Positions 6,010 to 54,681 of a stretch of DNA of 64,000 bases are shown piece by piece. The notes beneath the pieces are model-generated. The model was not told the origin of the DNA. It saw only the letters and a program-made list of their open reading frames with translations, and searched no databases. A program made the translations under genes and the position numbers. Position 1 is the first letter of the stretch, and each line of letters opens with the position of its first letter. Origin of the DNA: Tetrahymena thermophila SB210 (taxonomy: Eukaryota; Ciliophora; Oligohymenophorea; Hymenostomatida; Tetrahymenidae); contig NW_002476500.1 in assembly GCF_000189635.1 (NCBI RefSeq), positions 62,001-126,000 on the forward strand, read 5' to 3'.

Positions 6010-7153
6010 TTTATTTTCAAGATTAAAGTAAAGATAGAATTTTTATAATGTTTTTTAATTATTTATCAAAAAATATTTGGTTCTGTTTCTTAGAATATAA
6101 AGCAAACAATACGATATCTAATGTGTCTATATATCTATATTTTGTTGTTTCTACTCAAATTTATTGTGTCTATAAAGATTAAATAAAATTATAAATTTAA
6201 ATAAATCCACATATTGATTTATTTTTTTTTAAATGTCTCTTTATTAACTACCTACTTTTGTTAATCTTAATATTTACCATCATAAAGATAATTCAATAAA
6301 TAAAGTGGATCGAAATGAATATCTTTATTTTTGAAATAATAATAATTTTAAACTATTAAATTTTATTCAAAACTAATTAAATGTCTAAAAAAAGTTAGTT
6401 CTACTAACTTATATATTCAAATTTAATTTTTTTATTATATAAATACTTTTTGATTTTAGCTTTCAGATAACAATAAAATAGGATCATTTTAATTTTATAT
6501 TTTTTTTAAATATGTTCAAATAAAAATATTTTAAGTTTAATTAAATTATTTCATTCATTTAAAATAATAATAAATAATTTAAAAAATTATTAAATAATTA
6601 TAAAATGTTATAAATCATACTAAAAAATAGTAAATTTAAACATACTTTAAAATTATAAAAAATTAATTTACAAAAATAAAATATTTTTTCGATTAAAGTA
6701 ATCATTTAAAAAAATTTAAAATCTGAATTTTTTTAAAATATTTTAAATCCTATCTATCTATCGCCTGCCTATCTATCCTTCCATTTATCCACCCATCAAT
6801 CAATCAAACTTACTATACCCTAAAATAAAAGTGTATTTTGCTTTAATTATTGTTATTAATTCAAGTTGTAATATTTTTCCAAAAATTTTTAGCTTTTAAA
6901 AATGTTTGTATGGCAACTTTCAAAATTTACATGAATTAAATTTGGTTCTGTTGTAAAATCAAGACATATTTATGGCTTGAATATAGAAGGATGCTAATTA
7001 AAAGGTATAACTTAATTGTAAATTCCTAAATATTACTTATTTGTTTTTTAAGTTGAAGCATTTGTAAATGACAAATAATAAAAACGAATAAACAATTAAT
7101 TAATTATACTAAAATTTTATATTCATGTAATTTCTTTTCCAAAGCATTTTATT
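6010..7153. other. Intergenic stretch between kinase start and TmcB-like gene end
   Basis: Very AT-rich. A degenerate tetranucleotide tract (TATC/TCAA types) lies at about 6748-6808. The left part should hold the promoter of the minus-strand vWA-kinase gene, but no specific element could be identified. Confidence 0.5.
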
Positions 7154-21892: not shown

Positions 21893-23513
21893 TCACTCCT
21901 TAGCAAGAGGAAGAGCAAGGAAAGTACCGATAGCAATACCGAAAGTAATAGAGAAACCACCAATGAAATTAATTAAATTAATAATTTTGGGATCTTTGCA
22001 TTTACGGGGACCAAGGTTCATTAAACCAGTAGTGCAGAAACCGTTGGTAATAGCGAACATGAGTTAATTAGTCCAAGCGAAAACATCGTTTTGGAAATTT
22101 TCTCCTCCCTTTTCATTAGCAGTCATTAAGAATAAGACATAGTAAACAAATCTGAGCATGACAACACAGTAGATGAAATATAATTTTTCTAAGGCCTTAA
22201 CACTACCAAGATATTTGCCAACCAAATCACCGAAATTGTAACAAGTAATCATCCAAACTCTATTTTTTAATTAAATTAAAATTTAGTAAAAAAGATTCTA
22301 AATTTTTAAAAGGAAATGAAAAAATGTAAATGTTTAATTAAAAATAAATTTATTACGCTGCGTAGGGGTAGGGAATGATAGTGTAGGTGGGTTTTTAGAA
22401 AATGGAGACACCAGGGAACATCATGAAAGTTTAGATGTAGATGAAGACAAGGAAGACGGGGATGGCACCAGCATATTTGAAGACTTGAGAGAGATAGATA
22501 AGATATTAAATGAAAGAGTTTTGTAACAACTTGGCAACGAGTCCACTCTTCTTTGATTTCTTTTGTTGTTCAAGATTAACTTAAGACAAAGCTTATTCGG
22601 TTTTAAGTTGATTATCAGAACCGGTGTTAGCATTGTTGTTTTCAGCAGCCAACTTTTCCTTCATCATTCTGGCCATATCTATTTCAATTTCTCTGTTTTC
22701 AATTTTTGACTTGATGTTGTGTCTGTGTTCAAGAGCCTTAAAGTATTCAGTTTTGGTGAAGGCAGCTTGCATAGAGGCAGAGACGATATAAATAAGACAA
22801 GCGAAGGCGAAGTAAATTGCTGTGCAGACGTTCATAGAAGAGGGAGTATCACCAGCAGCGCCTAAGGCAATAAGTCTAATGAAGTTCATGACCAAACCAG
22901 AGGCGGCAGTGCAAGTCCAGTAAATGGCATTGATTTCGTGGGAGATCATACCAGCGAGGGCGATAAGAGAGTTGGTAACAACTGATTCAATGAAACCTTA
23001 GAAGAAAAGGAGAGTGAAGGAAATCCAAAAACCAGCCTTAGTATTGTAAAAGATAGCAATCAAAGTGATAGTAATTAAGAAACAGCAGACAGCAACAGAA
23101 AGATAAGCAATTCTTTGGTTATAGCTGAAACGACGGGCAAGAGCAGGACAGGCGAGACCAGCAAAGAAGTTGGTAATCATAATAGGGATAGGGAAATAGA
23201 AAGTGATATCGAGGTAACCTTAATCTTTGGGATACTTGGCACCGAAGAAATCGAATGCAGTAAGCATAGCATTCCAACCAGCTAAGGAGGCAATACCTAA
23301 AAAGACGAAGGTAATTTTGTACCAAAACTTGACTGGAGGAAGAGGCTTAGCCAATTCTTATTCTAATTGCTTGAACATTTCATCAATTTCAGAATCGACC
23401 TTTTTTAATGGGATTTCAGCTGGGTAAACTTAAGCGTTGCAGTTAGAGTCTTCCAACTTTCTGGGAGATTTGTTTCCCTAAACATCTTCAATAGGATAAG
23501 TTTCTTGGGTCAT
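21893..23513 (-). CDS. Equilibrative nucleoside transporter family protein (SLC29/ENT)
   Basis: Two exons (23513-22357 and 22259-21893) give 507 aa ending at TGA 21893-21895; the 97-nt intron is GT...AG. ENT proteins carry nucleosides and some bases across the plasma or vacuolar membrane. The first span holds the family-type GWNAMLTAFDFF signature (residues about 80-90). About ten further hydrophobic spans follow, with a long charged cytosolic loop between spans 6 and 7 (Glu/Lys/Asn-rich). Span 8 contains CYNFGDLVGKY, matching the conserved F-N-x-x-D-x-x-G-(R/K) motif. Length fits the family (450-530). Codon use is strongly biased to GGT, GCT, ACT and CTT, unlike the neighbours, suggesting high expression. 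Which substrate it prefers cannot be read from sequence. Confidence 0.93.
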
Positions 23514-26500
23514 TGCTAATGATTTAGATTCAATATTCTATGTTGGTTATTTATTTATATAATTAGATTTATTTATTAAATTAATTAATTATAAATCGCT
23601 TAATAGTTGAGATTTATAGCAAGACAGTAAAAATTAAAGAAATATAATTGAGATGCATTGCTTTAAGCTCAAATTCATTTATTTCCATGAGCATTATAAT
23701 TAATTTTTTTGTAAAATTTGGTAATAGTGCAAATCATTTAATGTTGGGGGATCACAAATCCAATAAAATCTGAATTAGCAAACTCATTTAAAAAAAGAGC
23801 AGCCAATAAAATTATTAATTAAACAAATGATAATAGGAGTTAGTATCTATTTATCCATATAATATGTTACTATGAATAAAAGGGGGATCGGTTAATCAAT
23901 TGATCATATCAATTAATCAATAAAGCAATCAATCTATCTATCGATCAATCAATCAATCAAAAAACAAACAAACAAACAAAAAGGCTAAGCCAATTTATAA
24001 TTATTGACATTATTGTCTAATTTTTAAGAAAGACTTTATATGAAATGTTATTGATTAAGTTATCCATTTATTATTATCCTTCAATAATGAAAGTTTACCC
24101 ATTTTTCAATATAAAAATGCAATATATTTTATTTTTTAAATGACTGATGTTATGTGGAAAATATCAGATATTCAACAAAAATTTAAAAGCACGCATGTTG
24201 AAAAATAATAACCATTTATTATATAAGAAGTAATTCATTGAATTATTTTATAGATATCAATCAATCAATAATTATTACAAATAAGTGCTACTTAATGTAA
24301 AAAAATTTACTATTTATAAACATTAAAAAATTTTGAATTTGTTCGTTGTTCGGGATTAACTCCTTTAATTATTGATTATTAATCAAATATAATGAAAGAA
24401 TGAATGAAAAATCGATTGCATTAATTATTATAAAATTTTGGCTGTATGCTTTTTATAGTTAATCAGTAAAAAAAATTGTTAATTATAATTATATATAATA
24501 ATTTAATTTGTATCCCTCATCTGCAATTAAATTTAATCTCTACTTATTATTTTAAATCTAATACAAATTTATTTGAGCCTTTAAAGACTCATCGCTATTT
24601 TAACTATTAATTTAAAGATCAAACAATCTTTGAAGATGTTACACATTCCTTTTAATGTTAATGAAAAATTAAAAGCGTTTCTTTCCTATCAAAAATATCG
24701 TATGTTAAGTTAGCCAAAGTAAAATGAATGATGTATTTAAAAATATCAATAAGTTGCTTGGAGGTATAGAAAAGGCTTTTCTAAGCCTTAATTAAATTAC
24801 GCTAGAACTGATCATTTAACAATGTTAACACAATTAAAGAGGACCCCAAAAAAAATTTTTACAAAATATAACCAATACTCAATTTGTATGCTATCTTGTA
24901 ATTAAGATGAATCTCTATCAGAAAATATTTACTATTATCTAATTGAGGTTGTTGTTACTTAATATTTAATTACAAAGATGCTTTTTTTTTAAAAAGTTAA
25001 GAAGCTCTCTTTCTCTGTCTTTATTTGCTTTTTAAATTATAAGCCCTCAATTTTTGTTTACTAAATTTGAAATGTGTTTAGCTCCAAATAAATTTTGTTT
25101 TGAATAACCATTTTACGATGTATTCTAACGCCTATATTCAATACTTACTATTTGTTTGAAAAATTTAATTTGAAAAGTGAGTATTTAGAATTTAATATAT
25201 AAAAAAGACACAAAAAAACATACAGGAAACCATATAAAAAAAATCTTGGCTTTTTAGTTGAATTTATGTCTTAATAATTATAAAATTGTATATTTTTATG
25301 GAAAACGATTGAATGAAAAGATTGCATTAAAAGCACATTTTATATATTTATTTATTAATAATTTTTTAATTTACTACAAAAGCATTATTTTAGCCTTGAT
25401 TTTTTTATCTAATCTTTCTTTTAATTATTAAGCAGTTGATTTGAAATTTTGCATTTTCGTTAAGATAATTACAAAGAAAATCAATTATTTTGATAATTAC
25501 AAATTAATTAAATGAGATATTGTTATACCAAAATTCAACTGGCTGTATTAATTTACTTTCTTTTAAATTAAGTCAAATTTTAAATTTGATAAGCATTTTA
25601 TCAGATCTCGCTTATGTTTAAAATTCTTTTTAGCTGGACATAAAAAGGCAAAACTATCATTTTTGGGGCTCAACTTCACACTAAAAACATTTTTTTTAAA
25701 TGGAGACCTATTGACAGGCGGACAAACAAATAATTGCAAGCTAAATATTTACTGAGAGGAGAATTGTCAAAAATACTTAACTTTTAGAAAATATTAAATT
25801 AAATGAATTCTACTACTTCTAGTAATTCATTCATTGATTGAAGTTAATAAAAAGCGATTTATTTAGACTTTATTAAATCTAATACGTCATGAGAAATACA
25901 ATGTAAGATTTCTTTCTCTTTAATCATTCACTTTATAAAAATTCTAAAAAAGTAATCTTATGATATTTCTTAAATATTTATTTAACTTGACATTGAAATA
26001 TATACATTTTATCCACATTATATTTCTTTTATCAATTTCAATTCTGATTTTACCATTAAAAAAGCTCTAATTGATATAAAAATAGATCAAGCACTCTCAT
26101 TTGCATGCAATAACAAACAATAACAAAATAAAGCAATATTTAAGCAATTTTTAAAAGATACACATTCTTATTCTTAGAGATCTTCAATATTTTATTTAAT
26201 CAATTAAGCTTTTATTTGAATGAAAATAAACTCCCATCATTTAGGTACTATCACAACATCATTTTAAAATATGAATTATTTTTCTACTAAATGATTGTGA
26301 TTTGTTTATTTTACGTTTATTATTGTCTAGAACTAAATGTGAAATAAATTTTTATCAAATAATACAAAAAAAATAAATACTTAATTTCACATTCACAAAA
26401 ATGGTAGAAAATCTTAATTTCATAAAGAATTTCTTTACAATACCAAAATAGTAAAAAAAAAATATTCTATCACAATTTAGCAAAAGGTTGAAATTTAGTA

Positions 26501-30881: not shown

Positions 30882-33796
30882 ATGGATTAGAAGTTAGTAG
30901 CTGACATTTTACAAGCCGAGATTTAAGTAGGCCGCAAAATTAAGTAGAATTAAAACAACTTAAAGCAATTCTCAGAGTTCAATCCTGAACATGCATTCGA
31001 AACTTTGAAGAAGTTTTACATAAACTCTTACAATTTGAATAGCTAACAACTTTAAAACTCTATGGCTCAGTCTAGGTTCTCTAATGTTCCTGGTTCAGCA
31101 TACAAGGGAGTTGTTGATATCGAAAAACTCACTTTGCTTTATAGACAATATGAGGAAACTGTTTCTTCTTTTGAAATTTAGGCAATTCTTTCTCGCCATA
31201 GTGCTGCAAGTGATAAGGGAATGGATTATGATTGCTTTTTGAAGTTTATTGGATTCAATCTTGGAGATACAAAACGCAAAAACACCATTTTCGATTCTTA
31301 AGCAAGAACAGAAAGATCTTTAACTGAACGTTGTATGAAGGCTCTCTCAAGTATCTTCCTTCTTGAATTAGATTTGCTTCGTTTCACAGAAGTTCATAAA
31401 GTACTCTATTTTTTTGTTTTTAAATGATTCATTCAGTCAATATATAATAAAAGATCATTGGGTGAAAAACATGTTTTTAAAAAGCATTTTCATTCAATAA
31501 AATAAAATAATAGAATAAACTTCGAAAGCTATTCGATAAGATTGCTAAAAAATCATGAAATTTGCTAATTTTATTTGGAATTAGTTTGAGAATAATAAAT
31601 AAAACATAGTAAATAAAAATTATTTAAGAAAAATAAATAAAAAAAAACAACCAAAAGTTCTTTCAATATGTCTTAAATAAGCAAATTTTAGCAAGGAATA
31701 AATTGATAAATAAAAATAATAATAAATTTTTATTAATTTGAAAGAATTTATTGTCTGCTTAATAACATTTTATTTTTTAATGGAAATAAATTCAAAAATA
31801 AATGAATAAATTGATTTATCATTTATTTACTAAAAAAATCAATTCTACAATCGTCTTAATCTATTATACTTATCAAAAACAAAATATTGCTCAAATATTA
31901 TTTTACAAAAACATCAAAAATGTTTACATTTTCTAACAAAAAATATTTATTATCTAAAATAATGTTTAAATTACTTATTAACAGGTTAGCTTAGTTAATA
32001 ACTATGGATTTGACTCTGCTAGCTTCTTTGCTTAAATTGATTATAGAAATCAATCATAAATTGACTTTGAGTTATTATAATAATTCTTTAGAAGAAATGG
32101 TCAAGAAATATCTCTTTAGGACTACTAAATTCTCCTTTCCAGACTCAAAAGAAACAAATAGTAGGAAAATCAGTTCATTAATCGTTAAGAATTCATTTAG
32201 TTGATCAGTCCTCAACTTCCTTACAGAGGAAAGAATTAGTAGGGTTAGTCAGTTCTTTTCCAAAGTCAAGCTGGTTAAAAGTCTTAGGTCCTAGGATCCA
32301 ACGAAAAAACAGTAAGATTCCAAGACCAATCTGTTGTTCACAATATTAATCAAAGCAGCAACAATGTGTTGGCTCAATCTCAAAATGTTAATTTGATAAA
32401 TTAATAACAAAGCTAAATTTTATCAGGTGGCAATACTAAGATTCTATAGTCTCAAGTCTAATAAGATGCACTTAATTCTAACTACATCTAAAATGGATCA
32501 CTTGGTTTAACTTAAAGATATGAACCTAGAATGAGCTAGGTTGTTTCTGAATAGAAAAACTACGCTTTTAACTAATTTGATTAGTAGTAGCAACAATAAT
32601 AGCCTTTATACAATTAACAATCTTAGATTCTTGTTTAATAACCCCAATAGGTCTTCTAATAATAACCCTAAACTATTATATAGCAATAACCTTTATTACA
32701 ATCTTAGCCTATATTTTTATAGAGTACTTAGTTTGCTTCTCCTCAAAACCCCTAAGTTTTTGCTCAATAAGGAGTCTAGGGATAAGTTGGACTACCATTA
32801 ATTCCTGGTTAGCAACAAAGCATCATTATTGGAGAAATTCCTCCTCCACCTCCTGGATACGTATTGGTTTAGAACCCTCCACAAACTGTATTATTACCTC
32901 CACCTATCTAGTAATAAGGATTTGATCCTTAATTTAACAATACTGCTTTGCAATAACAATAATTTTAACACCAATAAGAACCTTAAAATGATAACAGATT
33001 GCTAAATGAAAAACGCCCTAACGCTGTCCTTGAAGCTATGAATTAAATTCTCCAAAAGGATAATGATAAACTAAAAAGAGATAATGAGGAGTTACTCCAA
33101 AAAGTTTTGAAATACGAACAATACCAACAAAGAGAATCCGAGGAAGAATAAAAAAGATAAAGAGAAGCTGAACAAAAAAGATAGCAATAACAATAAGAAT
33201 AAGAAGAATAGCAAAGAAAGCAATAATTCCTTCAATTCTAGCAGTAATAAAATTAATTATCCCATGTTGTTAAATTCCCTACTCATGTTACATTTGGTGT
33301 TCCTCCTAATCAAATTAATTAACCTGGCGTTAGTGTCTAGAGTGTGCCTCTAAATCATCAAATTATTTAATCACCTGTCCAATCTTAAATTTTAGCTTCT
33401 CCTCCTATGAGTCCAATTAGACTAGTCCCAGCTGCTATTCAACCTCCTGAAATCTAATAAAGAGAGTCAGTTATTGCTTAGTAACTTATTTCTTCATAAC
33501 CTCCTCAACCTTAAGCTCCCACTTACATCCTCGATCCTAAATAGGTACCTACATATGTAGTAAATGATCAACCTTTTATAGTCAATTAGCAACCTACTTC
33601 TTAGTTCGCTCCAAATTTATTACCTAAATACAACCCTCAAAATCTCGAAATCAGAGAGGCTATAAACTAATAATTCCTTCCTCCTTTGCCATTCATCTAG
33701 TAAGGTTTTAGCACTCATTCAAAAAATCAACCTGTTTAGGATCCCTATAATGGATAGGCTGTTACCTCTCACTATCCAAACAGATTAAATTATTGA
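30882..33796 (+). CDS. EF-hand-like, Gln/Pro-rich protein
   Basis: Two exons (30882-31400; 31985-33796) flank a 584-nt intron and give 776 aa ending in TGA 33794-33796. Residues 1-250 are helical and resemble degenerate EF-hand pairs: FEIQAILSRHSAASDKGMDY and, after the intron, FFAQIDYRNQSQIDF, with acidic/polar loops but no fully canonical 12-residue calcium loop, so calcium binding is doubtful. From about 260 the protein is low complexity: Gln runs encoded by mixed CAA/TAA/TAG, proline-rich stretches (PPPPPGY), a short coiled coil near 490-550 (KDNDKLKRDNEELLQKV) and a Gln/Pro tail. This layout is common in ciliate cytoskeleton-associated proteins. Start: first in-frame ATG after the tetranucleotide tract. 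No specific family name is justified. Confidence 0.85.
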
Positions 33797-34344: not shown

Positions 34345-36006
34345 TCAGTAATCCTAATTTCTAGGAAATCTATGGTTTTAATATTTATAATAAGTGAATA
34401 AGTAAAAAATTTAAAATGATTTTAGCTTATCTTTAAGTTAAAATAAAATTTAATAAATTCTAAAAAAATAAAAAATTGATATAAAAATAATTGGTTCTTT
34501 CTTTCTTACTTGCTAAATGGTAGTTTACTATATTGTTGCTATTAGTAAGGGTTACTAGAACCAAAAGGCGTTTAATACATTTGACCATTAAACTAATTTG
34601 GTTAGCCAAAGCCTTAATTGATAGGTGTCAAAGTTGTTATTCGTTAAAATTTGAAGACACGATATTATTTTCCATTTGGAGGTAGGACACTATTGAGTAA
34701 ATTCAAGTTTTATAGTGACAAATTCTTATATAAAATAGGAGTTTGTTGTACCTATTGGTATTATATATGTTCACATTATTAAAAGCTACTTTTTTATGTT
34801 TAAGAATTATAATTAGTTTGCTATTGTTATGAAGCACTTTTTTTAAACTTTGATTGACTGAATTCTTCTTTTTTTGGTAAAACAAGTTTACTCAAACAAC
34901 TAACATCAACTTTTTAAAAACTCTTTAACTTTTAGATCAATCTAAGAGGTTCAAGCCTTTCTTATTTGTTAAAATTTACCATATAGCTTACTATTTTCTC
35001 TATAAAATCATAATTTGGATGACTTTATATAGAAGGAATGACATCAACTAGCAATGAAGTTTTTAAAAAAATGATTTATTCTGGTTTCAATTATTCTCCA
35101 AGCATGCATTATAAGATTACAACTCCTATAGAAAATACGTCTGCCTAAATTAATTTTATCAATTTACTTTAAAATAAAAATAATCTTTAAAACTTACCTT
35201 TATCGTGTAAGGCTTATCTCCATTTGAGACTTCAGGAGACATATATATTAAGTTTCCTTATAAAGACTAATTATTAAGGATGTTAATTATTTATTTAATA
35301 ATTATTTAAATATTTATAAAATACTGAGTTAGTGTGATCTAATAATGGGTCCTTCAATGAATGAGACTTTCCAAAATCACCTTTTATAAAATAGATATCA
35401 TTTTATTGATTAGATTAGCGTATTAGAATAATATATTAAAAATTTATTAATTTTTTACATAAAGCAAAGGTTAGCTTATTTCTACTAAATAATATATTTT
35501 ATGGCTTCACATCGCTATGTATTATACCGTTTTGATGAAAGGTAAGTAACGCTTTTAGTAATTATTCTGTCAGAGCCAATATTTGCTAAAAGGAAAGTTT
35601 GTTCAATTACAGAATCGTTTTCAAATTACCTAGTTTGATATATTAATAATTCATACTTATGTATTAATGATGTAAATTACAAATAAAGAATAGTAAAAGA
35701 TGTTGGTAACTTACAATCATACAATTCAGTGACAATAGCATACATATTTAAGTCAGGGTCAATAATAGTTGAAATTATTTGAACAATTTAATTTTCTCCT
35801 TAAAGCTTCTCAAAGATTTAGATTTCTTTTTCAATATCTTAGTCCTCATCATTAAATATTTTGACCGCAACTTCAATTTAATCTTCATTAGAGTACGCCT
35901 GGACAACAACTGAATAATCACCTTTTCCTAAAAATCTCTAAAATTAGTAGTTGTTATCCTAAAGAAAAATTTTTATTTCTTCAATGTTTGGTAAGTTATT
36001 TTCCAT
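34345..36006 (-). CDS. Serine/threonine protein kinase
   Basis: Five well-supported exons: 36006-35715, 35629-35459, 35380-35325, 35266-35198, then from 35144 leftward. Kinase landmarks are all present: glycine loop FLGKGDYSVV, VAVK lysine, E in the alpha-C helix (EKEIQIFEKL), catalytic loop HSDVKPQN (HSD instead of HRD), DFG (in ALCDFGKS), SPE in place of APE (NLIYMSPEV) and DVFSIGV. Three introns interrupt the domain exactly where splicing restores these motifs, so the phases are reliable. The domain spans nearly residues 15-270. A Gln/Asn/Ser-rich tail follows to about 34500. The 3' end is uncertain: the best model splices at a GTAAGA donor near 34510 and stops at TGA 34345-34347, whereas unspliced reading runs to 34116. 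The start region is compact, with no N-terminal extension. Subfamily not assigned. Confidence 0.82.
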
Positions 36007-36862
36007 TTTATTGTTTCTTATTCCTACACAATTAATACTATTTAAATTACCTAAAAAACTATGAATATTTATTTTTTGATTAATTTTAAGCTGATTTATT
36101 TATTGTATTTTCAATGAAATATCTATCTAAATCTCTATTTTTGTAATTATAATGACTTTGTATTAAGTTGAATATAAAATATGCACTTATTTTGATCAAA
36201 AATAGATTGATATTTAAACTTTGGTTTTTATAAAATTAAAAAAAAGAGAATTAGTTAAAAATTATCATAACCTGATTTAAAAATTTTATGATTTTAATTA
36301 TATTTGCTAATTATAAACAATCATTCAAGTTAAAGTATTAATCTGCATGACAATTAATTAAAAATTTATGTTATTTACTAAACAGACCAAATTCATTAAA
36401 GCTTATTAGTCATAAATTGGAATATTAGGTTTGATTTTGCAAAATAATTCCTTCAAAAAAATGATTAATTAATAAGGTACAATCACAAAAATAATAGAGA
36501 AGTACAAAAGTCAAAATAACATTTATAATATAGTATGTAATGTTGATTCGTTTCTGAAGTCGATTCGATGATGAACCATTTTTTATAAAATTTTTTAGCT
36601 CTATATGATATTATATTTTATACAGCGTTTCTGATTTCCAATAATCAAGGACGACCTATATATTTTTAAGTATATATTTTAAATACAAATATTAAGATTA
36701 AATAATTAATGTTAAATTAATTTTTTTGTAATATCTCTCCTTAAAAACTAATTTATTAATTAATATTTGATAATTAATGATTATATTTTATTTGTTCTTT
36801 TTATCCATTTATAATTAAATTCCATAAATTGCTTGCTATTCAATATTTTTGAAAAAAAATAA
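36007..36862. other. Divergent intergenic region with snoRNA-like segment
   Basis: Shared 5' region of the minus-strand kinase and the plus-strand LRR gene. Its right end (about 36760-36862) is similar to the sequence just upstream of the second LRR-array gene (about 49855-49956). A GC-richer island at 36541-36655 contains box C/D-like motifs (see separate entry). Confidence 0.45.
36558..36645 (+). ncRNA. Possible box C/D snoRNA
   Basis: ATGATGA (36568-36574, a box C match) and CTGA (36631-36634, box D) lie 56 nt apart in a GC-richer island. The terminal stem is weak (GATT at 36562-36565 against AATC further out) and no target was checked, so this is only a candidate. Confidence 0.2.
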
Positions 36863-39800
36863 ATGAAATAATAGATTTATTATTACAGAGAATTAGAAGA
36901 GGTAATTATTAATTTTTTTATTCATATCCTTTAAATTTATTTTTATTATTTAAAAAAGTTTTTAAACTCTTCACTTTTATCTCATTAGATTCTCCATGTT
37001 GATCTATAGTACATTTAATTTATAAATATTTTTTTATTATTATATTAACATTTTTTAAATATTTAACTTTCAATTTATTTAAAAAAATAATTTTACTAAT
37101 AGAAATTATCATTATTATTCATTCATTCATATTAAAATAAAAATATGATAGCTATTTAAACTTAATTTTAATTTCAATTTTTAATTATTTATTATTCTTT
37201 TTTTATTATTTGATATTTTTTCTCCATTTTTTGCTTTTAACATTTACACTCTATAAAAACAATTTATTTGTTTTGTATTGTAATGATTTTAATTATAAAA
37301 ATTAATTTAAAACATTAAAGCTCATTTAACTTATTTTCTTTCTTTTGCTTGTTTTTATTTTCCTTCTTTGTTAATTTAACTCGTTATTTTATTTTCAACT
37401 TTTGTTTTTATTATTAATTAATTTATCTTATTATTTCATATTTTTATTCATTTTCTCCTTCTAATTAACTATTTAATTATTTATTTTTTCTTCTATATTT
37501 AAAAAGTGACAATTAAATTGGTGATGAAAGTGCATCAGTCTTAGGTTCTGCTTTAGCAAATTGCATTAATCTCTAAAATTTGATACTTAGTCTTTAGTAA
37601 AAATAGTTTATTTTTTTGGATTGTGATATTTGTAATTATAAAATCTAATTTAAAACAATAAGCTCTTTTTTCTTTTTCTTTTTAATGTGCTTACTTGCTT
37701 TTTCTTTCTTTGTTAATTTAATTCATCATTTTATTTTCAACTTTTGCTTTTATTATTAATTAATTAATATTATAATTTCATATTATTTCTTCATTTTTTC
37801 CTTCTAATTAACTTTTTAGTTATATATTTTTTCTTCAATATTTAAAAAGTTACAATTAAATTGGTGCAATCGGTGCATCAGGCTTAGGTTCTGCTTTAGC
37901 AAATTGCATTAATCTCTCAAATTTGACATTTGGTCTTAGGTAAAAACAGTTTTTATATTTTGGATTGTGATATTTTTAATTATAAAAACTAATTAAAAAC
38001 AATAAAGCTCTTTTATCTTTTTCTTTTTATTGTGCTCATTTTTTTTTCTTCCTTCTTTGTTAATTTAACTCTTTATTTTATTTTCAAATTTTGTTTTTAT
38101 TATTAATTAATCTTGTTATTTCATATTATTTCTTCATTTTTTCCTTCTAATTAGCTATTGAATGATATATTTTTTCTTCAATATTTAAAAAGTAACAATT
38201 AAATTGGTGATGCAGGTGCATAAGGCTTAGGTTCTGCTTTAGCAAATTGCATTAATCTCTCAAATTTAACACTTGGTTTTAGGTAAAAACAGTTTTTTTA
38301 TTTTGAATTGTGATATTTTTAATTATAATAATAAAGCTCTTTTTTCTTATTCTTTATATTGTGCTTGCTTTTTTTTGCTGTTTATTTGTTAATTTAACTC
38401 ATCATTTTATTTTAAACGTTTGCTTTTATTATTAATTAATCTTATTATTTCATATTTTTTCTTCATTTTTCCTTCTAATTAACTATTTAATTATACATTT
38501 TTTCTTCAATATTTAAAAAGTAACAATTAAATTGGTGATGCAGGTGCATCAGGATTAGGTTCTGCTCTAGCAAATTGCATTAATCTATCAAATTTGACAC
38601 TTGATTTTCGGTAAAAACAGTTTTTTGTTTTAGATTGCGATATTTTTAATTATAAAAATTAATTGTAAACAATAAATCTCATTTTTCTTTTTATTGTGCT
38701 TGCATTTTTTTGTTCTTTATTTATTAATTTAACTCACCATTTTATTTTCATCTTTTGTTTTTTAATATTAATCTTATTATTTCATATTATTTTGTCATTT
38801 TTTCCTTCTAATTAACTATTTAATGATATATTTTTTCTTCAATATTTAAAAAGTTCTAATAAAATTGGTGCAATGGGTGCATCAGATTTAGGTTCTGCTT
38901 TAGCAAATTGCATTAATCTCTCAAATTTGACACTTGAACTTTAGTAAAACAGTTTATTTGTTTTGTTAGGATTGTGATATTTTTAATTACAAAAACTAAT
39001 TTAAAACAATAATGCTCTTTTTTTTCTTATTATTTTTATTGTACTTCCTTTTTTTGCTGTTTATTTGTTTATTGATCTCATCATTTTATTTTCAACTTTT
39101 ACTTATATTATTAATTCATTTTATTATTTCATATTTTATCTTCATTTTTTCCCTCTAATTAATTAATTAATAACATATTTTTTCTTCAATTATTAAAAAG
39201 AAGAAATTAAATTGGTGATGCAGGTGCATCAGGATTAGGTTCTGGTTTAGCAAATTGCATTAATCTCTCAAATTTGACACTTGATCTTAGGTAAAAACAG
39301 TTTATTTGTTTTGGATTGTGATATTTTTAATTATAAAAATTAATTTTAAATAATAAATCTCTTTTTTCTTTTTCTTTTTCTTTTTATTGTGCTTGCATTT
39401 TTTTGTTTTTTCTATGTTAATTAAATTCACCATTTTATTTTCAACTTTTGATTTTATTTTTAATTAATTAATCTTATTATTTCATTTTATTTCTTCATTT
39501 TTTCCTTCTAATTAACTATTTAAAAAGTAGCAATAAAATTGGTGATGTAGGTGCATCAGGCTTAGGTTATGCTTTAGCAAATTGCATTAATCTCTTAAAT
39601 TTGACACTTGATCTTCGGTAAAAATAGTATATGTATTTTAGATTGAGATAATTATAAAAACTAATTTAAAACAAAAAAGCTTTTTTTCTTTTTCTTTTTA
39701 TTGTGCTTATTTGTTAATTTAACTCATCATTTTATTTTCAACTTTTGCTTTTATCATTAATTAATTAATCTTATTATTTCATATTTTTTCTTCATTTTTC

Positions 39801-40253
39801 CTTCTAATTAATTATTTAATTATATATTTTTTCTTCAATATTTAAAAAGCATCAATTAAATTGGTAATGTAGGTGCATCAGGCTTAGGTTCTGCTTTAGC
39901 AAATTGCATTAATCTCTCAAACTTGACACTTGAATTTCGGTAAAAACAGTTTATTAGTTTTGGATTGTGATATTTTTAATTATAAAATGAAAATAAAACA
40001 AAATATCCCTTTGAATTTATTTGTGAGCTTTGATTTTATTTTTTTTATTATCTTTTTTATTCCACAAATGTATTTAATTTATTCATTTAAGAAATAATTT
40101 TTAATTTAAAAGTTTATCTTATTTAATATTTACTTAAATTTTACACAAATTTATTATAAAAGTTTTAAATAAATGAATGAATCATAAAAATTCAAAGTAA
40201 AACGCAAGTGTCTGAAATCAAAAAGATTAGTTGTCTTTAAAAAAAATTTATGA
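36863..40253 (+). CDS. LRR-array protein 1 (8 tandem one-repeat exons)
   Basis: Eleven exons: 36863-36901 (39 nt, M-K-Q-Q...LEE), 36959-37008 (50 nt), eight 90-nt exons (37507-37596, 37850-37939, 38193-38282, 38521-38610, 38854-38943, 39201-39290, 39528-39617, 39850-39939) and a terminal exon 40163-40253 ending in TGA. Total 900 nt, 299 aa. Each 90-nt exon encodes one 30-residue leucine-rich repeat of ribonuclease-inhibitor type, for example NNQIGDAGASGLGSALANC followed by INLSNLTLDL. All eight start after AG with one codon base and end with two before GTAAAA, so any number of them keeps frame. Repeats would stack into a curved protein-binding solenoid. The tail ends KCLKSKRLVV plus a few basic residues, shared with gene 49957-54681. 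No signal peptide or membrane span is seen, so it is probably intracellular. Partner unknown. Confidence 0.88.
37507..39939 (+). repeat. Tandem exon+intron array, 8 units of 322-347 bp
   Basis: Unit starts at 37507, 37850, 38193, 38521, 38854, 39201, 39528 and 39850. Not only the 90-nt LRR exon but also the following intron is repeated: after the donor each unit has CAGTTTATTTGTTTTGGATT-like sequence, a pyrimidine-rich middle, TTAATTTAACTCATCATTTT, then TTCTTCAATATTTAAAAAG at the acceptor. This is tandem duplication of whole exon-intron modules rather than exon shuffling. Confidence 0.9.
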
Positions 40254-40885
40254 TGATTAACAAGTAGCAAAGAGAAGATGAATAAGTATAACCAAATGCC
40301 ATTCAAAAATTTAGTGATTTGAGATCACTATTTTTTTGAATGGCTGATGTGTTTGAATATAATTTATATAAAAATAAATAATTTTATAATTGAATTTAAT
40401 TATCAATATTTATAATTTTAATTTATATCAATCAATATTTATAATTTTCAATCAAATTTTTAGTTTTTGATTTTCATTTATTTTTTAACATTTTTTAAAA
40501 CCAGGAACGGCTATATTTAATAAATCTTCTATTAATTAAAATTTGATTTGTTAGATTGATCTTCAATCTATTGATATTTTCATTTTCAAAAAATTTAAAA
40601 TTAAATTAATTCTTTTTTATACTTTCTATTGTTATTTTTAGTATTTTAAAAGTGTAACAGTTTTTGTTCAAATATTAAAATATTATATAAAGACTAATCA
40701 TTTCTTGAGAATATCTCCATATAATTTACATACATTTTTATAATTTTAATTTAATTATTTTAAATATGTAATCATATTAATTTAATGCACAAAACTCTTG
40801 ATGAGCTTGGAGATGTTCATATTTAGTTAATTAGTTAGTTATCTAAACTACAAATTTGATTTTTAGATACCTTCTGTGAGTGAGA
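40254..40885. other. Convergent intergenic region with conserved hairpin
   Basis: Between the 3' ends of the plus-strand LRR gene and the minus-strand Zn-finger/LRR gene. Contains the hairpin at 40299-40343 and, from about 40660, the start of the segmental duplication shared with 45227 onward. Confidence 0.5.
40299..40343. repeat. Long perfect hairpin
   Basis: CCATTCAAAAA pairs with TTTTTTGAATGG, and TAGTGAT pairs with ATCACTA around a 5-nt loop. A second hairpin with the same outer stem but different inner stem lies at 45150-45197. Both lie downstream of paralogous minus-strand genes. Confidence 0.7.
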
Positions 40886-43800
40886 TCAATTAAATCTATG
40901 AAATAAATTTGATTAAAATTTAAATAATAAGTATACTTTAAATTACCCAATGAAATCTAAACTTTACTAAAGATTTATTTTGGAATTTAATATATTTTAA
41001 CAAAATAGTAAAGACTCCATAACATCGTTAGCAATTTCTTAGTTGCAATTATTAAAGCTATTTTTAAAAAAATTAATTAATTTAATTCTAAAACAAATTT
41101 AGTAAAAAAATAATCTTTAAATTCAATTAAAAATATTCTAAAAAATAAAAAGATTAAAAAATATTTTAGTTAATAATTTTTTTGTTATTTAATTAATTGA
41201 TTAAAAATACCTCATGTCAAGATCCAAATTTTCTATACTAATGCACTTTAGTAAAGAGTTTGATATGCAATTAATTCCATCATCATCAATTTGATTCTTA
41301 CTAAAATTCATAAAATATATTAATTTTTATAAATAAACTCCATTATCATAGGAAATTTCTATTTAATTCATCTTTCTAGCTTCTAAGAATTAATTTTAAT
41401 AGGAATTGATAAAACAATTATTTACGATAAGTTAAGATTTAAACTTTAAAAAATTTTAAATGCATCTAAAGTAGTAGCTAGGACCTATACTTCATTACTA
41501 CCAAGGGTCATAAAACGTTATGTGAAAGAACTTCTAATTTAAATAAATGAAAAAATATCATAAAAACAAACTATAATAAAAACCAAAAAATAGACAAATT
41601 AAATATAATAAATACGTCTGTAACTAAAGGAATAAATTTGATAAATTAAGATTCAATGAAGTAATGTTTCGGCATTTTTATAAAGCACTTAGAATTTTTT
41701 TAAGCCCTTCTGGACCAATCTCGTTTTAGCTGTTTAATAAAAAATAAATATTTTTTGTTTGTTTATTTGACAAATTATTTATTTATTTGTTACTTTATTA
41801 AATAAAATTGAAACATGAAAATTAAAATAATATTTATATTTATTTTGGGGGGGAGTTGGGAGAGGGGGAATTTAGATAGTCTAAAATTTTCAGTGGGATG
41901 AATGAGAAACATTACTTTTTGATAAATTATTATACTGATAGATTAATTAATTTGTGTATTTGACTCTCTAGTGAGGGTAATAAGTATATTTTTACTAAAT
42001 ATGAATTATATTAAAGTTAAATTAATTATTTTTCAGTATTTGTTAGATGTTATTTTTTTAATTTTGTAATTACAATAAATTTGATTAAAATTAATCAATT
42101 TATGTAAAAGGTTACAATTTTTTAATTTTCTATGTTCTATACTTTTTATTCAAATTAATTCATATTTTTTAGTAATGATAATATATCATTAAATATCCCT
42201 AACTATCTAAAAATAATAAAAAGCAATCAATGAAGTAACTTGAAGACTTTAAAANNNNNNNNNNNNNNNNNNNNNNNNNNNNNNNNNNNNNNNNNNNNNN
42301 NNNNNNNNNNNNNNNNNNNNNNNNNNNNNNNNNNNNNNNNNNNNNNNNNNNNNNCCCTTTATTTTAATTAAAATATAAGATATAATAAATTTTAAATTCA
42401 CAATTACCTTAAATTAAGATCCAGTTCAGTAATATTTGGAAGCTTTTATAATATTTCTGCAATACTGTTAGATATGCTTAACCAAAACTGACAATATTGG
42501 TTATAGTTAAAAATGTTCTCTCCTAATAATACATTGCTTTCCGTATTGAATTAGTTTACTGATATTTCTTAAAGATCAAGCTTCAAATATCTAATATTTT
42601 GGCATTTTTCTAGGCAACAGCAAACACCTTTAAATCCATCTGCACTAATCTAACTCTTACTTTAATAAATTTACTTTAGTTCTAAATTTCTATAAAGCTA
42701 ATTAAGCCAAAACAAAACATAAAATTTATGAATACCTTAAATTAAGGCTAAAACGAGTGATATTTGGGTTATTTTCTAAGGTTCTTCGAATTCTTGTAGC
42801 TTCATCTGTATTTATTAAGCTTTAACTAAACCATTAAAAAAAAATTAATATAGAGAAGATAAATAAAAAAAATGAACTTAAAATTAATACATTTAAAAAT
42901 TTAAATAAAAAAATATTTGTTGTTTGACTTATATTTACATTATTTTAAATCCATCCAATTTATATAGAAAAAATTTTAAATAGAAAAATACTAAGCAGGA
43001 AAGATTTATCTTTGAAAAGTAATTAATTAATGATAGAAAGGCTTATTTTTTATCAAATGATTAAAAACATAATAGATAAATATTATAATCAGTTATTATA
43101 TCTAAAGATTCAATATTTTATTAAATTAGGAATACTTATTGTTAGTTTAAGCATTTAAAAAATTTAATCATCTGTTTTTAATTAATATTTAAAAAATTTA
43201 AAATTCAAAAATAATTAAAAAAAGTTTAACCTAAGATTAATATCTACATCATTTTGATTAATTGAGAGATTGTCAGGATAATTAAAACTGGACATATTAT
43301 TTTGATTTAAGATGTCTTATTATTGATCAAATATTTTTAGCTACCAATTCTCATTCTCTATTACATCGCATAATTTATTTTCAACTCTGCTATAAACATC
43401 AAGATCTAAGTTTATTATTTTATTGAAATTGTTAATCTAATTTAGTAAATTTTGTTTATTTATTTCATAATTCAAGTTGTTTTCTTTGATAATTTCTTTT
43501 AGCATCTAATTTTTTTTTTCAAAATCTTAATTCATACTTTTCACTATATCAATTAGTTTTTCCTTTTAGCAAATTTGATTGTATTCTTCTTAAGCTTTAT
43601 TACATTAATCTATGAATTAGAAAATTTCCTCTTGCTTTTCTTCTAATTTGGAGTCAATTTTCATTCTGATATTTTTAAAAATAATTCTAATTTTTTCTTT
43701 AATTTCAATAGGTTCTGATGCTTTGCTAGTTATTTCTTTTAATCTTTCTAAAATTTCAGGCTCCTATGAAAAAGGCCATCCTTCAAAGATAGTTTCATAG

Positions 43801-49394: not shown

Positions 49395-49454
<60 letters not shown>

Positions 49455-49956
49455 ATATAAGAGGAAAAGTGAGGTCTGGCGATTGATTTTTTAGACTAGC
49501 TTTTTAAAACAAATTTATAATTTTCAGAATTATCTGACAATTTGAAAAATTTTAATCTTAGCAATATTCAAATAAAAACATAATATATAATCATGATAAT
49601 GTATCTAGTGAAAATTTATGCAAAATACATAAAAATAGAGCAAAAATTAATTATAATCAATTCAAGATATTTTTTTACCTCAGTTAATTTAATTTTAGTA
49701 TTGCATTATTTCTTTCTATCTCTGCATATGTTTTCCATAGAAATATTCAGATTTAATAATTTTACAATAATTTTTTGTCATGTCTCTTCGTAAAAGCAAA
49801 TTTATAAATTTATATCTGATAATTATAGTGACTTATTTGTTGTTCTTTTTCAAATTAATTTGATAAATAATTACTTTATTTGATTTATTTATTTATTTAA
49901 ATACTAATAATTGATTAAAATTCCATAAATTGCTATTAAACAATTTTGAAAAAAAA
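48035..49956. other. Divergent intergenic region with (CTAA)n tract
   Basis: Between the divergent starts of the minus-strand Zn-finger/LRR copy B and the plus-strand LRR-array gene 2. Holds the end of the segmental duplication (to about 48662) and a perfect (CTAA)n tract at 49395-49454. The last 100 bases resemble the region upstream of LRR-array gene 1. A small frame at 49593-49793 is T-rich and not convincing. Confidence 0.5.
49395..49454. repeat. (CTAA)n microsatellite
   Basis: Nearly uninterrupted tandem TAAC/CTAA for about 60 bases. It differs from the ciliate telomere unit CCCCAA, so it is not a telomere remnant. Confidence 0.95.
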
Positions 49957-52900
49957 ATGATATAATAGAATATCTATTTTAATAATCTAGAAGAAGTATG
50001 TATTTATTTTTTTATTAAATACGCTTCAATTTATTATTATTAATAATAAAAGTTTATAAACTCTTCACTTTAATCATATTAGGTTCTCACAATTAGTTTG
50101 ATGTATATTTAATTTATTATTATTATTATTAATTTTTACTTATTTAATTTTCAAGTTCTTTACAATATTATTTTTCTAAAAGAAATACTCATCTCTTTTC
50201 ATTCATTTTTATTTAAGCAACATTTTTTTATTTTCAATTATTGCTTTTATTATAATTAATTAATTAATTTATTTATTTCTTATTATTTCATATTTTTTCT
50301 TCATTTTTTCCTTCTAAATAGCTTTTTAAATAATATTTTTTCTTCTATATTATAAAGAGATAAAAAAATTAGTTCAAAAAAGGCATCAGGATTAGGTTAA
50401 GGTTTAGGAAAGTGCTCTAATCTCTTAAATTTGACACTTAATCTATGGTAAAAATAGTTTATTTGTTTTGGATTGCTATTTTTGAATATGAAAATGTAAA
50501 GAGAGCAAAAAATTAACTCTATTATTTATTTAACAGCTTTTTATTTGATTTCTTTTTTTTTAATTTTGTATATATTTTTTTTTTCTTTGTTTACTTGTTT
50601 GCTAATTTAACTCATTTTTTCATTTTCAATTTTTACATTTCTTATTATTTCATGTTATTTCTTCATTTTTTCCTTCAAATTAACTCTTTATTTTTTTCAA
50701 TATTTAAAAAGTCAAAATTAAATTGACGTTTAAGGTGCTTCAGACTTAGGTTCTGGCTTAGGAAAGTGCTCTAATCTCTAAAATTTGACACTTGGTCTTG
50801 AGTAAAAACAGTTTATTTGTTTTGGATTGTGATATACTTAAGTATTTGAATAAAGGATGTATTGAAAACAATACAACTAACTCTTTTAATTTATTAATTC
50901 ACTTTTTATTTTATTTATTTTTCTTTTTTTTTGTTTTACTTGTGTTTTTTATATCTTTTTTTTAATTTGTTAGTATAAATCAATTTTATTTTAAATCTTT
51001 ATTTGTATTATTTATTTATTTATTTTTTATTTTTTTCTTCATTTTTCCTTCTCTAACTAATAAACTATATATTTTTTCTTGAATATTTTAAAAGGGGAAA
51101 TTTAATTGGTAATGGAGATCTATCAGGCTTAGGTTCTGGTTTAGGAGAGTGCACTAATCTCTAAAATTTGTCACTTTTTCTTTAGTAAAAATAGTTTATT
51201 TGTTTTGGATAGTGATATTTTTGAATAAAGAATGTATTGAAAGCAATACAGCTAACTCTTTTAATTTATTTATTTAGCTTTTTATTTGATTTATTTTTCT
51301 TTTTTTTTATTCTACTTTTGTTTTTTACATCTTTTTTTTATTTTATTTTTTCTTCATTTTTCCTTCTCTAAATAATTAGCTTTTTATTTTATCTTCTACA
51401 TTTAAAAAGTTAGAATTAAATTTCTGCAATTTGTGCATCAAGCTTAGGTTTTGGTTTAGGAAAGTGCACTAATCTCTAAAATTTGATACTTTATCTTATG
51501 TAAAAACAGTTTATTTGCTTTGGATTGTGATATTTTTGAATAAAGAATGTATTGAAAGCAATACAACTAACTCTTTTAATTTATTTATTCACTTTTTATT
51601 TGATTTATTTTTCTTTTTTTTGTTGTGTTTTTATATCTTTTTTTTATTTATTTGTTAGAAAAAATCAATTTTTTTTTTCCAATCTTTACTTGTATTATTT
51701 ATTTTTTCTTCATTTTTCCTTCTCTAACTAATTAACTCTTTATTTTTTCAATATTTCAAAGTTAAAATTAAATTGATACTTAAGGTGCTTCAGACTTAGG
51801 TTAAGGTTTAGGAAAGTGCACTAATCTCTAAAATTTGAAACTTTATCTTAAGTAAAAACTTTTTTGCTTTGGATTGTGATATTTTTGAATAAAGAATGTA
51901 TTGAAAACAATACAACTAACTCTTTTAATTTATTTATCCACTTTATATTTGACTTATTTTTCTTTTTTTTGTTGTGTTTTTATATATCTTTTTTTTATTT
52001 TTTAGTATAAATCAATTTTTTTTTTTCCAATCTTTACTTGTATTATTTATATTTTCTTCTCTAACTAATTAACTATATTTTTTTTCTTGAATATTTGAAA
52101 AGTGAAAATAAAATTGATGATGGAGATCTATCAGGCTTAGGTTCTGGTTTAGGAGATTGCACTAATCTCTAAAATTTGACGCTTTATCTTTCGTAAAAAC
52201 AGTTTATTTGTTTTGGATTGTGATATTTTTGAATAAAGAATGTATTGAAAAAAATACAAACTAACTTTTTTAATTTATTTATTTATTCACTTTTTATTTG
52301 ATTTATTTTTCTTTCTTTTTTATTTTACTTTTGTTTTTTACATCTTTTTTTATTTGTTAGTATTAATCAATTTTTCAATTTTTACTCATATTATTTATTT
52401 TTTCTTCAACATTTAAAAAGGAAGAATTAAATTTCTGCAATTTGCGCATCAAGCTTAGGTTCTGGTTTAGGAAAGTGCACTAATCTATAAAAATTGACAC
52501 TTTCTCTTGAGTAAAATCAGTTTATTTGTTTTGGATTGTGATATTTTTGAATAAAAAATGCAATAACTCTTTTAATTTATCTATTCACTTTTTATTTGAT
52601 TTATTTTTCTTTTTTTTATTTTACTTGTGTTTTTTTTTATTTGTTAATATGAATCATTTTTTTTTCCAAAATTTATTTATTTATTTTTATATTTTTCTTC
52701 ATTTTTACTTCTCTAACTAATTAACTATGTATTTTTTCTTGAATATTTTAAAAGGAATAATAAAATTGATGTTTAAGCTGCATCAGGCTTAGGTTCTGGT
52801 TTAGGAAAGTGTACTAACCTCTCAAAATTGACAATTAATCTTATGTAAAACAGTTTATTTGTTTTCGATTATGATATTTTTCAACATTAAAATTAATTTG

Positions 52901-54681
52901 TTTTATTTTTTTTTCTTTTTTTTCTTCAGCTTGTTTATATTTTTTTTATTTTTGTTTGTTTGTAAATTTAAATAATTTTTTCATATTTTTTGCTTGTGTT
53001 TTTTTTTTCTTTCTTTATTTATTTGTTAATTTAACTCATTTTTTTTATTTTCAACCTTTGCTTTTGTTATTAAATTAATTTATTCATTTTTATTATTTCA
53101 TATTTTTTCTTCATTTTTCCTTCTTACTAACTATTATCAATATATATTTCATTAAATATTTCAAAAGGCACAATAAAATTGGCAATGGAGATTTATCATG
53201 CTTAGGTTCTGGTTTAGGAAAGTGCACTAATCTCTCAAATTTGGAACTTAGTCTAGGGTAAACCAGTTTATCTGCTTTTAATTGTGATATTTTAGAATAT
53301 AAAAATGAATTGAAAACTATATAACAAGCTAACTCTTTTAGTTTATTTATTAGTTTTCTTTTTATTTATTTACTAATTTAATTCATTATTTCATTTTCAA
53401 CTTTTACTTTTATTAATAATTAATTAATAAAAATTCATTTCTTATTATTTTATATTTTATCTTCATTTTTTCCTTCTAACTAACTAATTAGTTATATATT
53501 ACTTCTTGAATATTTAAAAGCCACAATGAAATTGGTGATGAATGTGCATCAAGCTTAGGTTCTGGATTAGGAGAGTGCACTAATCTTTCAAATTTGACAC
53601 TTCGTCTTGAGTAAAAACAGTTTATTTGTTTTAGATTATGATATTTTTGAATATAAAAATGAATTGAAAACAATATATCTAAACTCCAATAATTTATTTA
53701 CTTTTTATTTAATTTATTTTTATTTTTTTTATTTTGTTTGTTTGTTTGTTAATTTAACTTATTTTTTTATTTTTAACTTTTGCTTTTATCATTAATTAAT
53801 GATTTTATTTCTTAGTATTTCTTATTTTTTCTTCATTTTTTCTTTCTAAATAACTAATTAAAGATATATTTTTTTCTAAAATATTTAAAAAGCAATAATT
53901 AAATTCGTTCAGAAGGTGCATCAGTATTAGGTTCTGCTTTAATAAAGTGCTCTAATCTCTCAAATTTGGGACTTTATCTCAGGTAAAAGCAGTTTATTTG
54001 TTTTGGATAGCGATATTTTTGAAACTAAAAATTAATTGAAAACAAAATTATAAACTCTTTTAATTTATTTATTAGCTTTTTATTATATTTATTTTTCTTT
54101 TTTTTTATTCTACTTGTGTTTTTTATTTATCTATTTCTTTGTATGTTTCATATTTAATTTGTTTTTTCATTTTCAGCTTTTGTTTTTATTATAATCAATT
54201 AATCCATTTATTGTTATTTCATATTTTTTCTTCATTTTTTCCTTCTAACTAACTAATTAACTAACTAACTAAATAGTTAATTAATAATATATTTTTTATT
54301 GAATATTTAAAAAGCCGCAATTTAATCTGTTTACAAGGTGAATTAGAATTAAGTTCTAGTTTAGCAAAGTGCACTAAACTTTCAAATTTGACAGTTGAAC
54401 TTAAGTAAAAACAGTTTTTTGATATTTTTAAAAAATAAATTTAATTTAAAACAATAAAACTAATTCTTTTATTTATTTATTGGCTATTTATTTGTTTTTA
54501 TTATGCTAAAATTTTTATTATTAAGAGATTTAAAAAATAATATTTTATTCTATTTATTTTTTTATTTTAATTTATACTAATTTATATTAAAAGAAAGAAT
54601 TGTATCAAGAAATCAAAATATATGAAAACAAAGTGGTTGAAATCAAAAAGATTAGTTGTCTTAAAAATAAATTATAATTGA
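49957..54681 (+). CDS. LRR-array protein 2 (12 tandem one-repeat exons)
   Basis: Fifteen exons: 49957-49995 (39 nt), 50053-50102 (50 nt), twelve of exactly 90 nt (starts 50358, 50712, 51095, 51410, 51762, 52103, 52421, 52755, 53168, 53521, 53893, 54315) and terminal 54594-54681. Total 1,257 nt, 418 aa. First two exons have the same lengths and related sequence as in gene 36863-40253 (M-I-Q-Q...LEE; then INSSLQSYQVLTISL). Each 90-nt exon is one 30-residue LRR (for example IDVQGASDLGSGLGKCSNLQ), all in one phase, with GTAAAA-type donors except where the donor is GTAAAC or similar. The C-terminal exon ends KWLKSKRLVV and a short basic tail, the same signature as gene 1. Repeats here are more diverged than in gene 1, and the last one (ICLQGELELS) has lost the consensus. 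No disabling change was found. Confidence 0.88.
50358..54404 (+). repeat. Tandem exon+intron array, 12 units of 315-422 bp, with 3-unit higher-order period
   Basis: Introns are homologous between units (TTATTTGTTTTGGATTGTGA after the donor, GAATATTTAAAAAG-type acceptors). Repeat types recur every third exon: IDVQGASDLG / IGNGDLSGLG / ISAICASSLG at 50712-51499, again IDTQGASDLG / IDDGDLSGLG / ISAICASSLG at 51762-52510, and more loosely at 52755-53610. So blocks of three exon-intron units, about 1 kb, were copied together. Confidence 0.85.

Follow-up and report, generated by a model that had tools for sequence, protein, structure and literature searches.

A gene in which each repeat of a leucine-rich repeat (LRR) protein is encoded by its own exon of 90 nt could be identified in the 64,000-nucleotide stretch of DNA analysed here (the window). 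It belongs to the group III 90-bp-exon LRR genes of Tetrahymena thermophila, and we consider it likely that it is shaped by exchange within introns together with diversifying selection on the exposed strand of the repeat, and that its product presents a variable face, probably for recognition. The gene family has conserved caps, a variable number of units, homologous introns and phase neutrality, and its diversity is gathered in three codons of the thirty. If each repeat indeed has a fast-changing binding strand, the family would be a candidate for an innate repertoire of a ciliate.

The window sequence has the character of nuclear DNA of a ciliate in which TAA and TAG specify glutamine. Read with this code, a single open frame runs through eight exons at 37507-39939, each exactly 90 nt long and bounded by AG and GT. 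The array and its accompanying features are as follows.

36700-37253, + strand: conserved 5' cap, running from upstream sequence through exon 1, intron 1 and the micro-exon into intron 2
36863-36901, + strand: ATG exon of 39 nt, the first to be coding, MKQQIYYYRELEE, phase 0
36989-37008, + strand: 20-nt micro-exon between AG and GT, encoding ILHVDL plus 2 nt, sets phase 2
37507-37596, + strand: 90-nt LRR exon 1, between AG and GT
37850-37939, + strand: 90-nt LRR exon 2, between AG and GT
38193-38282, + strand: 90-nt LRR exon 3, between AG and GT
38521-38610, + strand: 90-nt LRR exon 4, between AG and GT
38854-38943, + strand: 90-nt LRR exon 5, between AG and GT
39201-39290, + strand: 90-nt LRR exon 6, between AG and GT
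39528-39617, + strand: 90-nt LRR exon 7, between AG and GT
39850-39939, + strand: 90-nt LRR exon 8, between AG and GT
39940-40290, + strand: conserved 3' cap, made up of the last intron and the region of the terminal exon (tail of the family: KCLKSKRLVVFKK)

The introns of the array are in phase 2, splitting the codon after its second base, and measure 253, 253, 238, 243, 257, 237 and 232 nt in order. They are alike (mean pairwise divergence 0.113, range 0.074-0.163), and TRF reports one array at 37254-39987, with a period of 343, 8.1 copies and a score of 3256. These measurements bear out the preliminary description, which had claimed eight equal 90-nt exons in one phase and mutually homologous introns of about 230-260 nt. 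Among 244 strong exon matches from 19 loci of the same genome and the window, 232 are exactly AG-90-GT and 12 depart from this pattern. An in-frame TGA is found in 2 of the 232 exact exons, the other 230 being free of it, and the array pattern is therefore not due to chance.

Both ends of the gene are conserved within the family. Thirty-five distinct 5' caps could be aligned, including those of the window gene and of a second array in the window; 33 of them have an ATG exon of 39 nt followed by a GTAA donor, and 30 keep the whole phase arrangement of 39 and 20 nt. As the ATG exon is in phase 0, the frame closes only via the 20-nt micro-exon, which encodes the end of an LRR strand and does not figure in the preliminary description. 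Splicing of the leader exon straight to the array was rejected, since it gives the wrong phase and an immediate TGA, both of which are remedied by the micro-exon. Codon 5 of the micro-exon specifies D, N, Y, S, H or G and has T as its third base in all 35 rows, and the adjoining Leu codon 6, which lies beside the split codon, is found as CTC (13), CTG (12), CTA (4), TTG (3), CTT (2) and ATC (1; n = 35).

The stretch 36700-37506 matches at least 39 other places in the genome with 80-85% identity (40 scored of 1593 candidates). At the other end, the first ~350 nt of 39940-41000 have at least 39 other matches, mostly at 82-86% and a few at 77-81% identity (40 scored of 828 candidates). The family tail is preceded by an acceptor read as AG in 23 of the 28 comparable 3' caps (29 rows, one of which could not be placed). 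The window copy has CG instead of AG at this acceptor, at about 40195-40253, so that its last exon is uncertain; the acceptor is also missing in four other copies.

In kind, the window gene is known. The group III LRR genes described by Xiong et al. (2019; PMC6564038) have exact 90-bp exons, phase-2 introns of ~257 bp in T. thermophila, and conserved leucines; according to the text of that paper there are thousands of such genes, with 1 to 51 exons per gene, and eight of ten Tetrahymena species have more than a thousand LRR genes. The group is delimited by at least three consecutive exons of exactly 90 bp, and the window gene has eight. Its introns are likewise in phase 2, with the eight exons and the micro-exon joining into one open product, and their lengths of 232-257 nt lie near the ~257 bp peak. 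The six conserved leucines are found at positions 12, 16, 22, 25, 27 and 29, in 92-99% of the 232 exact exons, and the unit is repeated genome-wide at the nucleotide level in searches with one exon and with one unit as queries. The array architecture and unequal crossing-over, which PMC6564038 proposes as its cause, were thus already known; the same text suggests a role in recognition, of bacteria among others, and leaves the function open. The earlier reasoning that repeats can be gained or lost without disturbing the frame is right, and it had been in print since 2019 (PMC6564038).

Selection on these genes is given in PMC6564038 as purifying or relaxed, with a median Ka/Ks of ~0.4 for young LRR genes; a signal residing in three or four codons out of thirty would be diluted by a whole-gene Ka/Ks. 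The text of the paper mentions neither positive selection nor hypervariable positions, and neither a first exon nor a promoter, and its supplements with exon logos may show the variable positions. Relative to this text, the hypervariable codons, the caps and the micro-exon are new here. In a full-text literature search, beyond the reach of which most subscription papers lie, PMC6564038 was the sole report on the 90-bp-exon LRR family, and the hypervariable-codon pattern was unreported in Tetrahymena.

The genome searched comprises 101,022,631 bases in 445 contigs. Using one 90-nt exon as query, at least 40 matches were obtained (40 scored of 1806 candidates), and one unit of exon plus intron gave 210 matches; introns in the fetched loci have a median length of 249.5 nt (n = 242). 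Sixteen complete capped genes, from the fetched 10-kb loci and the window (locus L052, which is the window gene again, was left out), have 5, 7, 7, 8 (window), 9, 11, 11, 11, 11, 12, 13, 13, 15, 17, 17 and 19 exons, counts that include matches other than exact AG-90-GT. Paralogues with homologous caps differ in repeat number, from 5 to 19 exons. A TERT stretch of the same genome shares 102 of 102 residues with PDB chain 2r4g, which we take to be from T. thermophila, and this makes the genome that of T. thermophila or of something very near it; the ~30 residues preceding it match poorly and are taken for an intron that was read through.

The second array of the window, with 12 exons of 90 nt, is located at 50358-54404 (+). 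Its units are more diverged than those of the first array, as is its 5' cap at 49853 (72%), and it is probably an older member of the family. A perfect (TAAC)15 is present at 49395-49454, ~0.4 kb before this cap.

In the 232 exact exons (score at least 60, the 12 strong matches that are not AG-90-GT being left out), the variation gathers in codons 1 and 28 together with codon 30, which the intron splits into bases 88-89 and base 0 of the following exon. Seven of these nine bases have an entropy of 1.6-1.9 bits and the other two ~1.0 and ~1.1 bits, compared with means of 0.44 bits in the rest of the exon and 0.48 and 0.37 bits in the 60 nt of flanking intron on each side; the nine bases were picked after viewing the entropies, and contrasts with the rest are in part circular. 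The independent part of the evidence is the fit of the nine bases to the strand motif. This motif reads L27 x28 L29 x30 x1 N2 in the family (LxLxxN), and codons 28, 30 and 1 are its x residues, probably forming the binding face, with exposure assigned by the motif. Concentration of change in the x residues of the strand is a mark of recognition LRRs, and it is found here with the same motif-based assignment of exposure. The proposal of the preliminary description that this is a recognition gene is strengthened indirectly to that extent, diversification falling mainly on x residues of the strand motif, and we retain recognition as a probable rather than an established role.

At the level of residues, entropy amounts to 3.72 bits at codon 1 and 3.15 bits at codon 28 among 323 unique units (24 edge matches and 20 non-90 matches left out, duplicates merged), with 43 and 39 distinct codons in use, respectively. 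The next most variable are codons 7 (2.42 bits), 6 (2.24) and 3 (2.03), of which only codon 3 belongs to the strand motif; the third base of codon 3 is A in 93%. In 173 adjacent exon pairs, 148 distinct triplets of residues 28, 30 and 1 occur, and N, D, Y, G and S are frequent in them. Within the window array divergence reaches 0.52 at the nine bases, compared with 0.113 for introns and 0.095 for the exon outside these bases, and across the family the nine bases differ almost as strongly between repeats of the same gene (0.543) as between repeats of different genes (0.603). In 39 lower-scoring, older exons, positions 1 (3.22 bits) and 28 (2.99 bits) are again the most variable, and positions 3, 11, 17, 20 and 26 reach 2.6-2.9 bits; since other positions come this close, the contrast in variability is a feature of young units.

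A decaying tandem array devoid of function, with neutral variation, is hardly credible in the face of this distribution, for neutral drift would not gather variation in three codons, and both the near absence of in-frame TGA from the exact exons and the retention of the six leucines speak against it. In its favour are the acceptor that most relatives keep and the window copy lacks, and the 12 strong matches departing from AG-90-GT.

The nine bases change much faster than the introns. Between units whose introns (~250 nt) differ by less than 1% (7 pairs) they already differ by 33%, at intron differences of 1-3% (55 pairs, making 62 pairs under 3%) by 47%, and beyond 3% by 57-67%. Pairs picked by intron similarity are biased, and therefore pairs were selected by one flank plus the exon backbone and the neutral rate was taken from the other flank. 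With this held-out flank, the ratio of nine-base to intron rate is 11.9 in one of the closest sets (CI 7.8-20.0; 11 edges), 6.3 in the other (3.4-13.9; 13 edges) and 4.5-9.6 in wider sets, all of which are lower bounds as the nine bases are near saturation. The closest tree edges (<3%) derive from nine locus records, of which three lie on a single contig, and the pairs overlap, so that they do not represent independent tests. In the 12 unit pairs closest by total distance, codons 1 and 28 differ in 20 of 24 comparisons, every time with a change of amino acid and never silently; codons 2, 27 and 29 are identical in 12 of 12 pairs, and codon 3 differs in 1 of 12.

Such an acceleration could be an artefact of pair choice if the differences at codons 1, 28 and 30 were old and gene conversion had recently homogenised introns and backbone, a scenario that seems to us quite improbable. 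That units do recombine follows from the closest sets, in which divergence is 3-9 times higher in the held-out flank than in the exon backbone used for the choice, and in pairs chosen by intron similarity the backbone in turn diverges 2-4 times more than the introns. The identity of codons 1 and 28 in 4 of 24 comparisons of the 12 closest pairs is, moreover, near the 5-8% of the pool, and some pairs may seem younger than their true age because of exchange in introns. However, several of the closest pairs are near identical across both introns and backbone (all or nearly all 81 backbone bases alike) and yet differ at codon 1, 28 or 30, so that conversion tracts would need to stop beside precisely these codons. 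The share of single-base changes at codon 1 is also higher in the close pairs, at 6 of 12, compared with 22% for the pool, which argues against old differences; codon 28 shows no excess of single-base changes in the 12 closest pairs.

Selection at the amino-acid level is supported at the third base of codon 1, at base 0 and at codon 5 of the micro-exon. C-T changes, which are always silent at third bases, number 12 versus 79 others at the third base of codon 1, compared with 640 versus 578 in introns (p 5e-14), and at base 0 they number 5 versus 14 others, again rarer than in introns (p 0.035); A-T changes were left out of these tallies, and the tests are sensitive to base composition, in which these sites and the introns differ. 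Codon 3, with its nearly constant third base, and codon 29, where silent differences are absent from 90 young pairs, likewise favour selection. The third base of codon 28 shows no shortage of silent C-T changes (58 versus 54 others, OR 1.03). Taking codons 1 and 28 together, third-base-only differences within two-fold families are not clearly short of silent ones (8 of 23 and 22 of 40 silent in the widest sets), and the silent deficit at single-base changes has p values of 0.01-0.6, varying with threshold and model. A two-rate codon likelihood prefers selection when the base frequencies of the site are used, and does not reject equal rates when flat frequencies are used; given this dependence on the frequency model, it does not serve as proof. 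Because silent change is frequent at codon 28 and at codon 6 of the micro-exon, selection alone does not offer a full explanation. The variability of exon codons 6 and 7, which lie off the strand, and the small lead of positions 1 and 28 in the older exons also weigh against the preferred explanation.

It is conceivable, though in our judgement unlikely, that diversification is targeted, with a mutagenic or templated short-tract process swapping codons 28, 30 and 1 as blocks and selection filtering the products. Along the 11 closest tree edges, 17 codons have changed at positions 1 and 28, 11 of them at two or three bases, and one pair differs at seven of the last eight exon bases with 5 differences in 249 intron positions. 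Silent C-T changes at the third base of codon 28 stand in much the same proportion to other changes as they do in introns, and per site they are far more frequent (58 of 203 edges at one base versus 640 over at most 250 intron columns). The Leu codon of the micro-exon, adjacent to the split codon, changes silently as well, which speaks for and not against regional mutagenesis. A regional mutator should, however, also strike codon 29, where 90 young pairs of array units show no silent and five amino-acid differences; with no silent change between the variable codons 28 and 30, regional hypermutation of the array units is disfavoured. Adenine-directed mutagenesis as performed by diversity-generating retroelements, in which adenines are generally mutable, should strike the A's of codons 2-4, yet these are conserved, and this form is disfavoured too. 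Finally, the third base of codon 1 and codon 5 of the micro-exon resemble the outcome of amino-acid-level selection rather than of a mutator.

Codon 28 is associated with bases 88-89 in a manner that fits exchange of short blocks between units (mutual information, p 0.001, one of five uncorrected tests). This association counts in favour of targeted diversification as well. The remaining tests of the five gave p 0.019 for bases 88-89 versus the next codon 1, p 0.067 for codon 1 versus the next codon 1, p 0.15 for codon 1 versus codon 28 of the same exon, and p 0.87 for codon 28 versus the next codon 1.

Under the preferred explanation, intron exchange combined with diversifying selection, unequal exchange in the long homologous introns would add or remove repeats, and diversifying selection would drive amino-acid change at residues 28 and 30, at residue 1 of the next exon and, more weakly, at residue 3. 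Point change and exchange of short blocks may both feed this selection. Since the strand motif is interrupted by the phase-2 intron, an exchange within an intron would re-pair half-strands, joining residues 28 and 30 of one unit to residues 1 and 3 of another, and residue 30 itself would be formed anew. The protein would thereby present a variable binding face, probably for the recognition of changing targets. A bolder version, in which Tetrahymena has a targeted process that renews the recognition residues of its LRRs, and in which introns are placed so that exchange re-pairs the halves of the binding strand, appears to us decidedly improbable; if true, a targeted process would amount to a repertoire-making system in a single-celled eukaryote.

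Lamprey VLRs, TAL effector repeats and diversity-generating retroelements all have a small number of hypervariable residues set in a repeat backbone that is otherwise nearly constant. The array gene differs from these systems in that there is no evidence for somatic assembly at this gene. There is also a likeness to plant NBS-LRR proteins: variation at the array gene falls on the residues of the LRR strand predicted to be solvent-exposed, and for plant LRR resistance proteins one study reports positive selection only at the solvent-exposed x residues of xxLxLxx (PMC3113787). By analogy with these, the likely role of the product would be the binding of variable partners. In contrast to the plant proteins, the array product has a 30-residue repeat, one per exon, and up to exon 8 no NB-ARC domain was found in it.

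Up to exon 8 the product has 259 residues, which match LRR_6 in Pfam with an E-value of 2.7e-19 and also LRR_5, with LRR_1 just under the cut-off; an NB-ARC domain was not found in the Pfam search, which returned LRR families alone. Among solved structures, those nearest in sequence belong to LRR proteins of the RI-like kind; the best of them include 5irm (listed as an uncharacterized protein; we take it to be NOD2) and several LRR proteins of cilia. The array gene differs from these RI-like proteins in having one exon per repeat and a unit of 30 residues.

Several other features could be identified around the array gene. Directly upstream of it, on the opposite strand, lies a partial protein kinase domain (35232-36110, -), and a 684-codon open frame with 101 TAA/TAG (glutamine) codons, for which Pfam gave no match, is found at 31742-33796 (+). 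A comparison of the ORF at 22227-23783 with PDB produced no match, and scans of the window with Rfam and with ARAGORN (run with the bacterial code) found none of the features they search for. The gene at 3310-6279 (-) encodes an alpha-kinase that also has a von Willebrand A domain, with Pfam E-values of 1.1e-53 and 1.1e-8, respectively. The contig of the window also carries the telomerase RNA gene (G000:C67:213644-213808; Rfam RF00025, 161.9 bits).
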